Assembly (NCBI GenBank): GCA_027487685.1
Contig: JAIYDC010000017.1
Coordinates: 1 to 57,457, forward strand
Length of the DNA: 57,457 nt
Reading direction: 5' to 3'
From: Pseudomonadota bacterium
GTDB lineage: Bacteria > Bdellovibrionota > Bacteriovoracia > Bacteriovoracales > Bacteriovoracaceae
A program made the position numbers and the translations under genes. The notes under the pieces were generated by a model that worked only from the letters and a program-made list of their open reading frames with translations, did no database searches and was not told where the DNA came from. Positions 44,176 through 47,209 of this stretch are shown piece after piece (position 1 is the first letter of the stretch; each line of letters begins with the position of its first letter).

Positions 44176-44587
44176 TCGAACGAAAGAAGTGAGAATAAAC
44201 TCGTTACTTGTAGATATTGAGACATGATCTAATAATTCGATATATCACAGAGGATTTAATTACCTAAGAGAGACGTCGGGAATTCTCCTTTGGCTTGCTC
44301 TTACTAGATAGCATCTCTAACGAAAGGAAACTCGATGTCTTATCAGGCCAACACGACAATGATTAAAAAAAAGTTGGACTCTTAAATCTCACCCTCAAAG
44401 TTGGGAACATTTCCAAGGCATTGGCCATCGGTAAGTTTGAGCAGAATGGTAAACAGGCGATGACAAGCATAAGCCCCTAGGCCGACTGCTAAGATAACAA
44501 ATGAGTGGTGACATTTTTCAAGACGTCAAAGTCAGATCTTAACGAGAGGAAAGAATTTAAGACAGATGAGAACATGTGATCTAAGGT

Positions 44588-44604
44588 CTTCGATTAAATC
44601 GAAG
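44588..44604. repeat. Short palindrome in the AT-rich gap
   Basis: Arms of eight bases (44588-44595 and 44597-44604) around a single central base, extendable outward by three pairs with one bulge. It could be an operator or a small hairpin; no function shown. Confidence 0.4.
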
Positions 44605-44871
44605 CCTAATCGTATGGATTAAGAACTAAGGATAAACCAAGTCACCTCAGAAAGGTATCTCATCATTCCGGGGAGTTCCAAATGCCAATATGCTGCAAAC
44701 AGACGATTTGGTTCGACTGAATTTAGATTCGTCTGACTTTCTTTTGTCTTGCTCGTCGCCAGCCTTGGCGAGCTAAGTTTCAGGAAAAAAATTACATGAG
44801 GCTCGAAAAGAGAATGATTGAAAGCTTGTAAAACCTCTTTAGGGCACCTGGGCGACAATAGGTTTTAAGAC

Positions 44872-44899
44872 TTGATAAACTACTGTGTGAAATTATAGG
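44872..44899 (+). promoter_or_regulatory. Candidate sigma-70-type promoter for the pilin/S74 fibre gene
   Basis: TTGATA (44872-44877), 16-base spacer, TATAGG (44894-44899), 40 bases before the ATG at 44940. The spacing and -35 element are good; the -10 is off consensus in the last two positions. Confidence 0.45.
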
Positions 44900-44939
44900 A
44901 TTTTAATTCAAGGGATGAAATCTATTTCCAAAGGTATCC

Positions 44940-46454
44940 ATGAAGTTAAAATCTGCTGGCTTTTCTCTAGTTGAAGCTATGGTCGGTTTAGGTGTTATCA
45001 GTCTTGGTGCAGTTGCAATGATGCAATTGACTCAACACCAAAGTAAGAATCAGGTTACGGCAGATACAAAGTTCGAAGTCCTTGAGGTGAAGCGTCAGAT
45101 TGCTAATAGCTTTGCATCAAAACAGGCCTGCGAGTTGACTCTTGCAAATTTCATCATTGGTCAACCACTAACCCAAGTCTTGAATGCTCAGGGTACACCT
45201 GTATTTACTGTCGGCGAAAATTATGGGAACAACTCAGTAAAACTCACTTCAATCACCTCTGAACTTAAAAGAGATAATGGTGACCAGACTTATAGTGCAG
45301 ATCTTATTTTTTCCTTCGAAAATCTTAGGAAGATGGCCCTCGTCAAAAAATTACCCGTATTCCGACTGGCCTTGCAAGTAGGAGCTCCTACAGTTAATTC
45401 AAAAGTGGAGTCTTGTTTTTATAAGGATTCGCTTTGGAGTTTAAATGATCTTGATATATATAATTCAAACCCAGGTAACGTAGGCATTGGCACAGACACG
45501 CCAAAAAGCCAATTACATCTAATGCATCCACAAGATGCAATGGTTGGTGGCCCAGCAGTTACTTTGGAAAACTCGACATCAAATAAAACTTTCTCCATCT
45601 CAAGTCGATCAGATAATTCGGTCCCACGTTTTTCAATTGCTGACGACACCTTAAACCAAGAGCGGATTGTTATCAACACTGCAGGACTGGTCGGAGTCGG
45701 CACCATGTATCCTCGAACTATATTACATCTAATGCATCCACAAGATGCACTAGTTGGTGGACCAGCAATAACTTTAGAGAACTCTACATCAAACAAAACT
45801 TTCTCTCTCTCAAGTCGATCAGATAATTCTGCCCCACGTTTTTCAATTGCAGATGACACCTTAAATCAGGAGAGGCTTACCATCAATTCTGCAGGTTTGG
45901 TCGGAGTTGGAGTCGTTGATCCCAAGACAGAACTTCAAGTGTCTGGAGTTATTTCACCTGCGACTGATAATGGCCATTCTCTTGGAAACTCAACTTTTAG
46001 GTTTACTGACGTGTATGCTGCGAATGGAGTCATTAACACCTCAGATCGCCGGGAAAAGAAAGATATTAGGGAAGCAGACTTAGGGATGGATTTCATTAAT
46101 AAACTTCGCCCTATTTCGTATCGTTGGAATACTGGTATTGATACTGAAATTCATTATGGCCTAATTGCCCAAGAAGCAAATGAAGCACTTGCAGAGATTG
46201 GCAAGGTCGAAAAGACATCTATAATCTCTCATGACGCAACAACAGATCGTTATGGAATTCGTTACTCTGAGCTCTTGTCTCCGATGATAAGAGCAGTTCA
46301 AGAGCTATACATTAAGTTCATTGTGCTTAATGGTGAAATGGAAAACATCAAAGCGACAAATGCTCTTTTGAAAGCGAATGATCATGCAAAGAACATAGAG
46401 ATTGCTGAACTCAAGGCTCGTTTGGATAAAATCGAAAAGACATTACTCAAATAA
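44940..46454 (+). CDS. Pilin-like/fibre protein with S74 intramolecular chaperone domain
   Basis: 504 residues joining two systems. N-terminus: prepilin-type signal 'MKLKSAG/FSLVEAMVGL' with cleavage after G7, F8 next and E12 at mature position 5, followed by the hydrophobic helix, as in type IV pilins and type II pseudopilins. Middle: repeated 'VGIGT-x-x-P' and 'LHLMHPQDA' blocks, two full copies of 70 residues (from about 192 and 262). C-terminus: 'SDRREKKDI' at S368, then 'RPISYRW' and 'YGLIAQE', the Peptidase S74/endosialidase chaperone domain that cuts itself before the serine after trimer folding, and a final coiled coil. Fits a surface fibre or adhesin. AT-rich; lies in a gene-poor island. 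Confidence 0.85.
   Translation: MKLKSAGFSLVEAMVGLGVISLGAVAMMQLTQHQSKNQVTADTKFEVLEVKRQIANSFASKQACELTLANFIIGQPLTQVLNAQGTPVFTVGENYGNNSVKLTSITSELKRDNGDQTYSADLIFSFENLRKMALVKKLPVFRLALQVGAPTVNSKVESCFYKDSLWSLNDLDIYNSNPGNVGIGTDTPKSQLHLMHPQDAMVGGPAVTLENSTSNKTFSISSRSDNSVPRFSIADDTLNQERIVINTAGLVGVGTMYPRTILHLMHPQDALVGGPAITLENSTSNKTFSLSSRSDNSAPRFSIADDTLNQERLTINSAGLVGVGVVDPKTELQVSGVISPATDNGHSLGNSTFRFTDVYAANGVINTSDRREKKDIREADLGMDFINKLRPISYRWNTGIDTEIHYGLIAQEANEALAEIGKVEKTSIISHDATTDRYGIRYSELLSPMIRAVQELYIKFIVLNGEMENIKATNALLKANDHAKNIEIAELKARLDKIEKTLLK
45513..45932 (+). repeat. Two direct 210-bp repeats within the fibre gene
   Basis: Copies begin at 45513 and 45723 and are nearly identical over about 150 bases, less similar at their ends. 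The period of 210 bases equals 70 codons, so copy number can change without breaking the frame. Their product is the 'LHLMHPQDA ... SSRSDNS' block. Confidence 0.8.
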
Positions 46455-46720
46455 TTTTATCCTTTTGGAGTAGAACCGCCACCTATTCTATCAACGCTCA
46501 TTTGCCCTTAAATGGCCGAGCGACATCTCGTAAGAGTTCCCTTCCTTACGAAAGAAGTTAATAACTCAAAACGAAGGCACTGGAACACTATCGACGTATG
46601 GCCATGTGTCTCAAAGGATACCTCGCAGTCTTATCATAAATGAGTTCGATACCTCTGCGCTCGCTTTAAGCTCAAAGCGACTAACCCGCTTGGCCATGAG
46701 CACGACATGTTTTCAGACTC

Positions 46721-46864
46721 CTCTTTTTGCATCTTTACGTCGATCACAGTCTAGAGATCCATGCCTACAACGGAGAGCTAGAAATCACTTCACCTCTCGA
46801 CGGTACGAACTTCTCTATCAGAGTTGAGGAGCGATTAGAGAAAGTAAGTGCTCTATTCGTCTAG
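46721..46864 (+). pseudogene. Fragment resembling the C-terminus of a histidine kinase ATPase domain
   Basis: A 47-codon open stretch ending at TAG (46862-46864). Its order 'SLEIHAYNGELEITSPLDG' followed by 'TNFSIRV' mirrors the final part of HATPase domains (His ... G-x-L-E-I-x-S ... G-T-x-F-x-I). Upstream the frame is stopped within about 30 bases, and no other kinase motif precedes it, so this would be a relic. Short, thus uncertain. Confidence 0.35.
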
Positions 46865-46866
46865 GA

Positions 46867-47004
46867 GTGAGCGATGAGGGGATCGAGCAAATCATCGCTC
46901 TTCTGGCGGGTGCCCAGAATCGTCAGGAAATTGGCGAGAGCTGTAGGGATCTAACGGCGGTGGGATTCGATGCGTCCGCCGAAGCAAAATACGTCTTTTC
47001 CTAA
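46867..47004 (+). pseudogene. Possible fragment of an unknown gene (45 codons)
   Basis: GTG-started frame in another phase from the previous fragment, with protein-like composition ('GIEQIIALLAGAQNRQEIG'). The frame is open a little upstream of the GTG. It could be a decayed C-terminus or a tiny gene; no family recognised. Confidence 0.25.
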
Positions 47005-47154
47005 TCGCCACGAGAGAGAGAAAACTATCAGTCGCTAGTCGACTATGCGTCAATCCGGAGTCAAAGGAAGAGGACTCGCGAGAGCGCCCGTCGTTGCCGT
47101 TATCAATGTCGTAAGGGAGATAAAAAAAGTATGTGAGGTAAGTGAGAAACAGCA

Positions 47155-47184
47155 ATAAAAAAGGGGCCGCAAATGCGACCCCTT
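47155..47184 (-). terminator. Intrinsic terminator of fusA
   Basis: Minus-strand stem of ten pairs (arms 47175-47184 and 47161-47170, one G-U pair), ATTT loop, then TTTTTTA. It begins 26 bases past the fusA stop. Confidence 0.88.
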
Positions 47185-47209
47185 AAGAGCATTCAAAGTG
47201 CTTTTGGAA

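Follow-up and report, generated by a model that had tools for sequence, protein, structure and literature searches.

A type IV pilin-like start joined to an S74 fibre tip in the Bacteriovoracaceae: a candidate modular minor pilin resembling the Bdellovibrio MAT fibres

Gene and domain organization

The window analyzed here, a stretch of 57,457 nucleotides from a 149-contig draft genome of a member of the Bacteriovoracaceae, encodes a 504-amino acid protein in which a pilin-like N-terminal domain (N-domain) is followed by a shaft of two repeats and by a tip and chaperone of the S74 type (Table 1). The initial annotation of this DNA had proposed a pilin-type start joined to an S74 domain, and this architecture stands: the open reading frame was recovered exactly (44940-46454), both the N_methyl and the S74 families were matched, and the fusion recurs in relatives. 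The two 70-residue repeats described at the same time were found as well, with a period of 210 nt (70 amino acids) and 86% identity between the copies; 17 of the 27 differences between them fall on codon position 3, that is, are mostly silent. Three VGxGxxxPxxxL motifs, spaced by 70 amino acids and starting at residues 181, 251, and 321, are close to the capping-loop consensus of the MAT fibres (PMC10769870).

Table 1 Features of the gene in the window and other records with pilin-S74 fusions
Feature	Record	Position	Strand	Basis
Coding sequence: pilin-like N-domain, two-repeat shaft, S74 tip and chaperone	Window	44940..46454	+	ATG start, 504 aa
Short basic class III leader, MKLKSAG	Window	44940..44960	+	Gly-1 in 30/30 relatives; N_methyl match
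Pilin alpha-1-like helix, residues 8-59, Glu at +5 (E12)	Window	44961..45116	+	AF2 N-domain model; Glu+5 in 26/30
Remaining pilin-like domain, residues 60-180, antiparallel strands, C64/C159/W166	Window	45117..45479	+	Wider alignment, AF2, homologues
MAT-like capping motif 1, VGIGTDTPKSQL, residues 181-192	Window	45480..45515	+	VGxGxxxPxxxL motif
Shaft repeat copy 1	Window	45512..45700	+	Repeat comparison
MAT-like capping motif 2, VGVGTMYPRTIL, residues 251-262	Window	45690..45725	+	VGxGxxxPxxxL motif
Shaft repeat copy 2, 86% identical to copy 1	Window	45722..45910	+	Repeat comparison
MAT-like capping motif 3, VGVGVVDPKTEL, residues 321-332	Window	45900..45935	+	VGxGxxxPxxxL motif
Predicted mature tip, residues 330-367	Window	45927..46040	+	Alignment with 4uw7, 4uw8, 3gw6
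S74 core, residues 368-421, SDxxxK motif	Window	46041..46202	+	Pfam and PDB sequence matches
Rest of chaperone, ending in long helix 443-503	Window	46203..46451	+	AF2 full-length, helix pLDDT ~60-87
Pilin-S74, Bacteriovoracaceae UBA4096	L109			
Pilin-S74, two in tandem, another Bacteriovoracaceae	L141			
Pilin-S74, Bdellovibrionales SI034_bin15	L149			
Pilin-S74, Bdellovibrionaceae MAG	L131			
Pilin-S74, three in tandem, Oligoflexia	L164			
Pilin-S74, Oligoflexia	L179			
Pilin-S74, alphaproteobacterial MAG	L135			
Pilin-S74 with Shufflon_N, cultured Rhodovibrio sodomensis DSM 9895	L118	4609-6378		

The gene is solitary, with no pilus genes beside it. Its G+C content is 40.6% versus 51.1% for the window, which fits recent acquisition or exchange. 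The regions on either side (44176-44939 and 46455-47209, each about 750 bases, the upstream one with 39% G+C) contain no convincing open reading frame and are perhaps remnants of decayed genes or of an insertion. Elsewhere in the genome, the machinery of type IV filaments is encoded. Its prepilin peptidases are open frames of 288 and 175 amino acids, the latter sharing a contig with a secretin and a T2SSE-type ATPase; in addition, there are three large ATPases of the PilB/GspE type, three secretins, pseudopilins of a T2SS, and a type IVa-like pilin.

The S74 tip and chaperone

S74 (PF13884) matched residues 368-421 with 53.1 bits against a cut-off of 22 (E 3.8e-14), and the SDxxxK motif is intact (S368-D369-R-R-E-K373). 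When the protein was searched against PDB sequences, residues 331-367 aligned with the mature T5 tail fibre (chain 4uw7, 294 residues), which ends exactly before S368; further matches were to 8ond, the Bdellovibrio fibre Bd2133 (E 6e-11), and to 4uw8 and 3gw6. Self-cleavage is accordingly predicted where the first reading of the gene had put it, immediately before S368, and the T5 alignment suggests a beta-helical tip directly upstream of the cut. Residues 332-456 show 42% identity (112 bits) to a protein of cyanophage P-SSP2. The full-length AF2 model, with a mean pLDDT of 45.7, is of use for secondary structure only. The S74 part is probably a self-removing folding chaperone rather than a peptidase acting on other proteins.

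The pilin-like N-terminal domain

The protein starts with MKLKSAG/FSLVEAMVGLGVISLG (the slash marks the predicted cut) and reads MKLKSAG/FSLVEAM around the cut, with Gly at -1, Phe at +1, and Glu at +5; the hydrophobic run lies C-terminal to the cut, not before it. Cleavage by a prepilin peptidase is predicted after G7. N_methyl (PF07963) matched residues 4-27 with 19.9 bits (E 5e-4), slightly below the cut-off of 21.2, in the Pfam scan of the protein, and reached 24.6 bits, above the cut-off, in the genome scan; a match to Shufflon_N was not found in the window protein by the Pfam scan. The 30 pilin-S74 proteins with readable starts from the same GTDB family all keep Gly-1, and 26 of them keep Glu+5, within a start-search pattern that limited both positions (G or A at -1; E, Q, A, D, or S at +5), and chance is therefore ruled out as the origin of the pilin-S74 architecture. 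In a wider alignment of the N-domain, C64 and C159 are invariant, and W166 is almost invariant.

An AF2 model of residues 1-180, of moderate confidence (pLDDT 62, pTM 0.50), has a 52-residue helix (8-59) that begins at +1 and is followed by antiparallel strands 98-112, 115-128, and 141-152. At that level of confidence, the order of secondary structure elements fits a type IV pilin. Fold searches with this model (Foldseek, VIA-align) returned NTF2-like sheets as the best matches (E > 0.01), and the single type IV filament match shown, the pseudopilus model 9a1f_R (Z 4.0), stood among equals; we dropped the claim of a pilin fold from the fold search, given that NTF2-like sheets came out on top and pilins were not singled out.

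Residues 7-163 are 30% identical over 158 amino acids (E 5e-19) to a pilin-like protein of genome G104 that lacks S74 and is encoded in a run of three pilin-like genes, one of its neighbors scoring above the N_methyl cut-off. The nearest relative of the N-domain, a 306-amino acid open frame of G104 (47% identity over 178 amino acids), combines the same N-domain and one VGIG capping motif with a different, non-S74 end. The best reading of these similarities is that the N-domain is a pilin-type module common to pilin-like proteins that lack S74. In the G104 gene at L224:1724-2641 (minus strand), a pilin-like N-domain and a single capping motif precede a Cys-containing end that is not S74; L039 similarly combines VGIG motifs with a pilin-like start and an end other than S74. 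These two are pilin counterparts of the NS74 MATs.

Distribution of pilin-S74 fusions

The window genome contains seven S74 genes; the five with complete starts are all pilin-like, and the other two run off contig ends. In an alignment, the N-domains of the paralogues share Gly at -1 and Cys at 64, and two paralogues, on contig C20, carry A or Q rather than Glu at +5. Two long S74 fibre genes of G000 with closely similar repeats (L009 and L012, on contigs C87 and C43) stop at contig ends, probably because the draft assembly failed within the repeats.

In the class, represented here by one GTDB family, the N-domain profile matches 124 of 129 genomes, and S74 is present in 84 of the 129. At least 20 of the family's genomes have fusions of the two, as judged from open frames matched across both lists together with fetched regions; thus, the search for paralogues with pilin-like starts and S74 ends that the initial annotation called for was successful both in the genome itself and across the family. 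The fusion protein of G087, which has the same genus code as the window, is almost identical to that of UBA4096. One scan of named genomes extended the list to Bdellovibrionales, Oligoflexia, and Alphaproteobacteria (Table 1). N_methyl was matched in 7 of the 9 proteins of an alignment that combined the window protein with eight from named records (A7), and is also found in the alphaproteobacterial MAG protein (L135) and, weakly, in the tandem Oligoflexia proteins (L164). The N-terminal part of the Rhodovibrio protein matches Shufflon_N (E 3.9e-8), the domain of PilV, an adhesin of plasmid pili, and its main matches in PLSDB are plasmid PilV proteins; a PilV-type minor pilin has therefore also been joined to S74.

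Several other arrangements were observed in these genomes. In G104, three consecutive pilin-S74 genes with overlapping ends (L083:8044-12769) immediately follow ftsA-ftsZ, where a cell-wall and division cluster ends, and, at another locus of the same genome (L087:2001-8021), three pilin-like genes with Cys-rich ends are found beside a gene on the same strand for a 1083-amino acid RCC1-type repeat protein; the products could form a pilus tip complex with a propeller-type adhesin. Bdellovibrionales F1-80-MAGs081 (L110:34-9860) encodes an S74 fibre of more than 2100 amino acids, followed on the same strand by a secreted protein and two pilin-like genes. An alphaproteobacterial S74 fibre of 1059 amino acids (L176:3325-6501) has a membrane helix at its C-terminus and, at its N-terminus, a hydrophobic stretch that is a possible Tad/Flp-like start.

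Exchange of tips among anchors

The S74 fibres of the GTDB family have three types of start, namely, a Sec signal followed by an LSYSGRLVN-type domain, a lipoprotein signal, and the pilin-like domain. The LSYSGRLVN-type domain, which together with a signal peptide is seen in the long S74 fibres of the family, fits the MAT N-domain as described. A tree of 55 S74 tips requires 15 changes of anchor, against a least possible number of 2 and a mean of 21.9 after shuffling, and the starred branches alone force at least 3 pilin, 5 Sec, and 4 lipoprotein changes, where the anchor labels are N-terminal patterns (four corrected by eye) and the tips are a subset of the existing fibres. Judging from this tree, the anchors are clustered and yet have been exchanged repeatedly.

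The window tip itself forms a trio with one lipoprotein-anchored and one Sec-anchored fibre (support 100/98). Closest to it (residues 330-504) is a 459-amino acid frame of G086 (53%) with an unclear start, along with a 1511-amino acid lipoprotein-anchored fibre of another genus (55%) and a 985-amino acid Sec-type fibre (51%), whereas the other S74 tips of its own genome score no more than 57 bits against it and are thus more distant than the protein of phage P-SSP2 (112 bits). These relationships indicate that N-domain and tip have been inherited independently, as modules swapped with other anchors and tips. Once the GTDB family is left aside, the window tip is most closely related to fibres of phages, such as that of P-SSP2; a direct origin from a phage is weakened as an explanation, the family fibres being closer (51-55%) than the phage protein (42%). 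The pilin-anchored fibres are shorter than the others: S74 starts at a median position of 379, versus 1159 and 1283 in the other two classes, for which long open frames were chosen; G104 gives a fairer view of length, with five pilin types of 387-546 amino acids and the others mostly above 1100.

Proposed mechanism and alternative explanations

We propose, with a probability of roughly 60%, that the window protein is a modular minor pilin bearing a trimeric phage-like fibre, that is, a homotrimer from which the chaperone has been cut off and which displays a receptor-binding tip on a type IV filament. Under this scheme, the prepilin would enter the inner membrane and be cut by PilD after G7. 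In the periplasm, by homology to Bd3182, T5, and K1F, three S74 chaperones would join three chains and fold the shaft and the tip into an intertwined triple beta-helix; self-cleavage before S368 would then release the 137-residue chaperone and expose the tip. Its pilin helices would then place the trimer in the tip of a type IV filament, an arrangement already proposed for CofB and TcpB, and as the filament grows, the trimer would be pushed through a secretin to the surface. To our knowledge, CofB and TcpB have no S74 chaperone. Finally, and speculatively, the tip might bind a glycan or protein on the surface of another cell, which retraction could pull in.

The marginal N_methyl score, the moderate N-domain model, a fold search that did not single out pilins, the solitary gene, and the draft state of the genome speak against the pilin-fibre reading. 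The pilin or pseudopilin route is nevertheless the best reading of the sequence because Gly-1 and Glu+5 are kept, the helix starts from +1, the N-domain is common to pilin-like proteins that lack S74, and the machinery genes are present. An unlikely alternative is that the pilin-like start is a mere membrane anchor and that the trimer stays in the inner membrane or periplasm, or is shed, without entering a filament. Glu+5 is important for filament entry in many major pilins, and the two paralogues of the window genome with A or Q at this position, like the isolation of the gene, are compatible with simple anchoring. However, the constant Gly-1 and the Glu+5 in 26 of 30 relatives are as expected under selection for both cleavage and assembly, this N-domain also occurs at the start of a series of pilin-like genes that carry other tips, and a receptor-type tip facing the periplasm would have no obvious target. 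We consider it more doubtful still that the protein is a pseudopilin-like component of a T2SS, comparable to GspK at the tip, rather than part of a pilus: GspK is indeed a modular tip pseudopilin (PMC8179133), and a T2SS locus is present (contig C24), but this locus already has its own set of pseudopilins, and a long fibre with a receptor-type tip would be more at home on the cell surface than in a periplasmic piston. An ordinary Sec signal peptide, which would make the protein a short MAT held by some surface partner, appears highly improbable: there is a possible AxA site within the helix (A24-V-A26), and other S74 fibres of the GTDB family do use Sec or lipoprotein signals, but the relatives keep Gly-1 and not AxA, Sec signals seldom have a Glu in their hydrophobic stretch, no MAT-type N-domain (LSYSGRLVN...) is present, and the N-domain is common to pilin-like proteins.

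For the pilin-borne fibre that we favor, the role of a surface adhesin is plausible by analogy with MAT and PilV; the architecture also occurs outside predators, in Rhodovibrio. More tentatively, the family might keep a set of fibres built combinatorially, with trimeric, self-processing tips of phage type passing between Sec/MAT-domain, lipoprotein, and type IV pilin anchors, so that some pili would end in phage-like receptor-binding fibres able to reel in a bound cell. Such exchange amounts to a shuffling of domains within a cellular adhesion system, comparable to that of phage tail fibres, and the anchor-swapped tips suggest a mix-and-match set of sticky fibres, some of them probably on pili. 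These observations touch on the open questions of how predators such as Bdellovibrio recognize prey and what is carried at the tips of their pili.

Comparison with known systems

The closest counterparts are the MAT fibres of Bdellovibrio bacteriovorus, in particular the S74 subgroup exemplified by Bd3182, which share with the window protein a shaft of the triple-beta-helix type with capping motifs, a C-terminal S74 chaperone with SDxxxK, mosaic tips, and hosts among the Bdellovibrionota (PMC10769870); the tip of the MAT Bd2133 is homologous in sequence to the window tip (8ond, E 6e-11). Self-cleavage has been demonstrated for Bd3182, at S782 (PMC10769870). In contrast, MATs are about 1000 amino acids long and have a signal peptide and a conserved beta domain of about 130 amino acids, whereas the 504-amino acid window protein has a pilin-like N-domain. 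In N-domain alignments, the MAT N-terminal domain (LSYSGRLVN...) is absent from it; judged by its sequence, it is MAT-like but not a MAT. The MATs of B. bacteriovorus HD100 are taken here to lack pilin starts from their published description (PMC10769870). That work, of 2024, left the surface partner of the MATs unknown and names pili only as a possible interplay, with the word pilin absent from the text (PMC10769870). A pilin-anchored class of MAT-like fibres offers a testable answer for part of the repertoire.

With the modular type IV pilins, such as PilB and PilC of Streptococcus sanguinis (PMC8179133), the protein shares a class III N-terminus with a grafted C-terminal module: the class III leader, Gly-1, Glu+5, the hydrophobic helix, and the extra C-terminal S74 module are all present. 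Bimodular pilin adhesins are a precedent, and the architecture IPR012902-IPR030392 (N_methyl + S74) was among the 15 commonest in the 2021 InterPro survey of modular pilins, where S74 was read as a peptidase activity (PMC8179133). A fibre shaft, a chaperone role, the MAT link, and exchange between anchors and tips do not figure in that survey (PMC8179133); the architecture gains a new reading here, with S74 probably a self-removing chaperone. Our literature search found no paper that links N_methyl + S74 modular pilins with the Bdellovibrio S74 fibres. Hence, the N_methyl + S74 domain pair (2021) and S74 fibres without pilin in Bdellovibrio (2024) were already known, and what is new is the link between pilins and MAT fibres, the chaperone reading of S74, and the exchange of tips among three anchors.

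The protein can also be likened to CofB and TcpB, homotrimeric minor pilins with an elongated C-terminal part that is displayed at the filament tip (PMC9565799), and to the plasmid adhesin PilV, a minor pilin whose exchangeable adhesive ends decide the partner cell (PMC9045228); the window protein lacks the Shufflon_N domain, which the Rhodovibrio protein has. S74 fibres and spikes of phages (the T5 L-shaped fibre, the K1F endosialidase, and P-SSP2) align with it in the tip and chaperone, across the cut site, but are attached to the virion rather than to a pilin.
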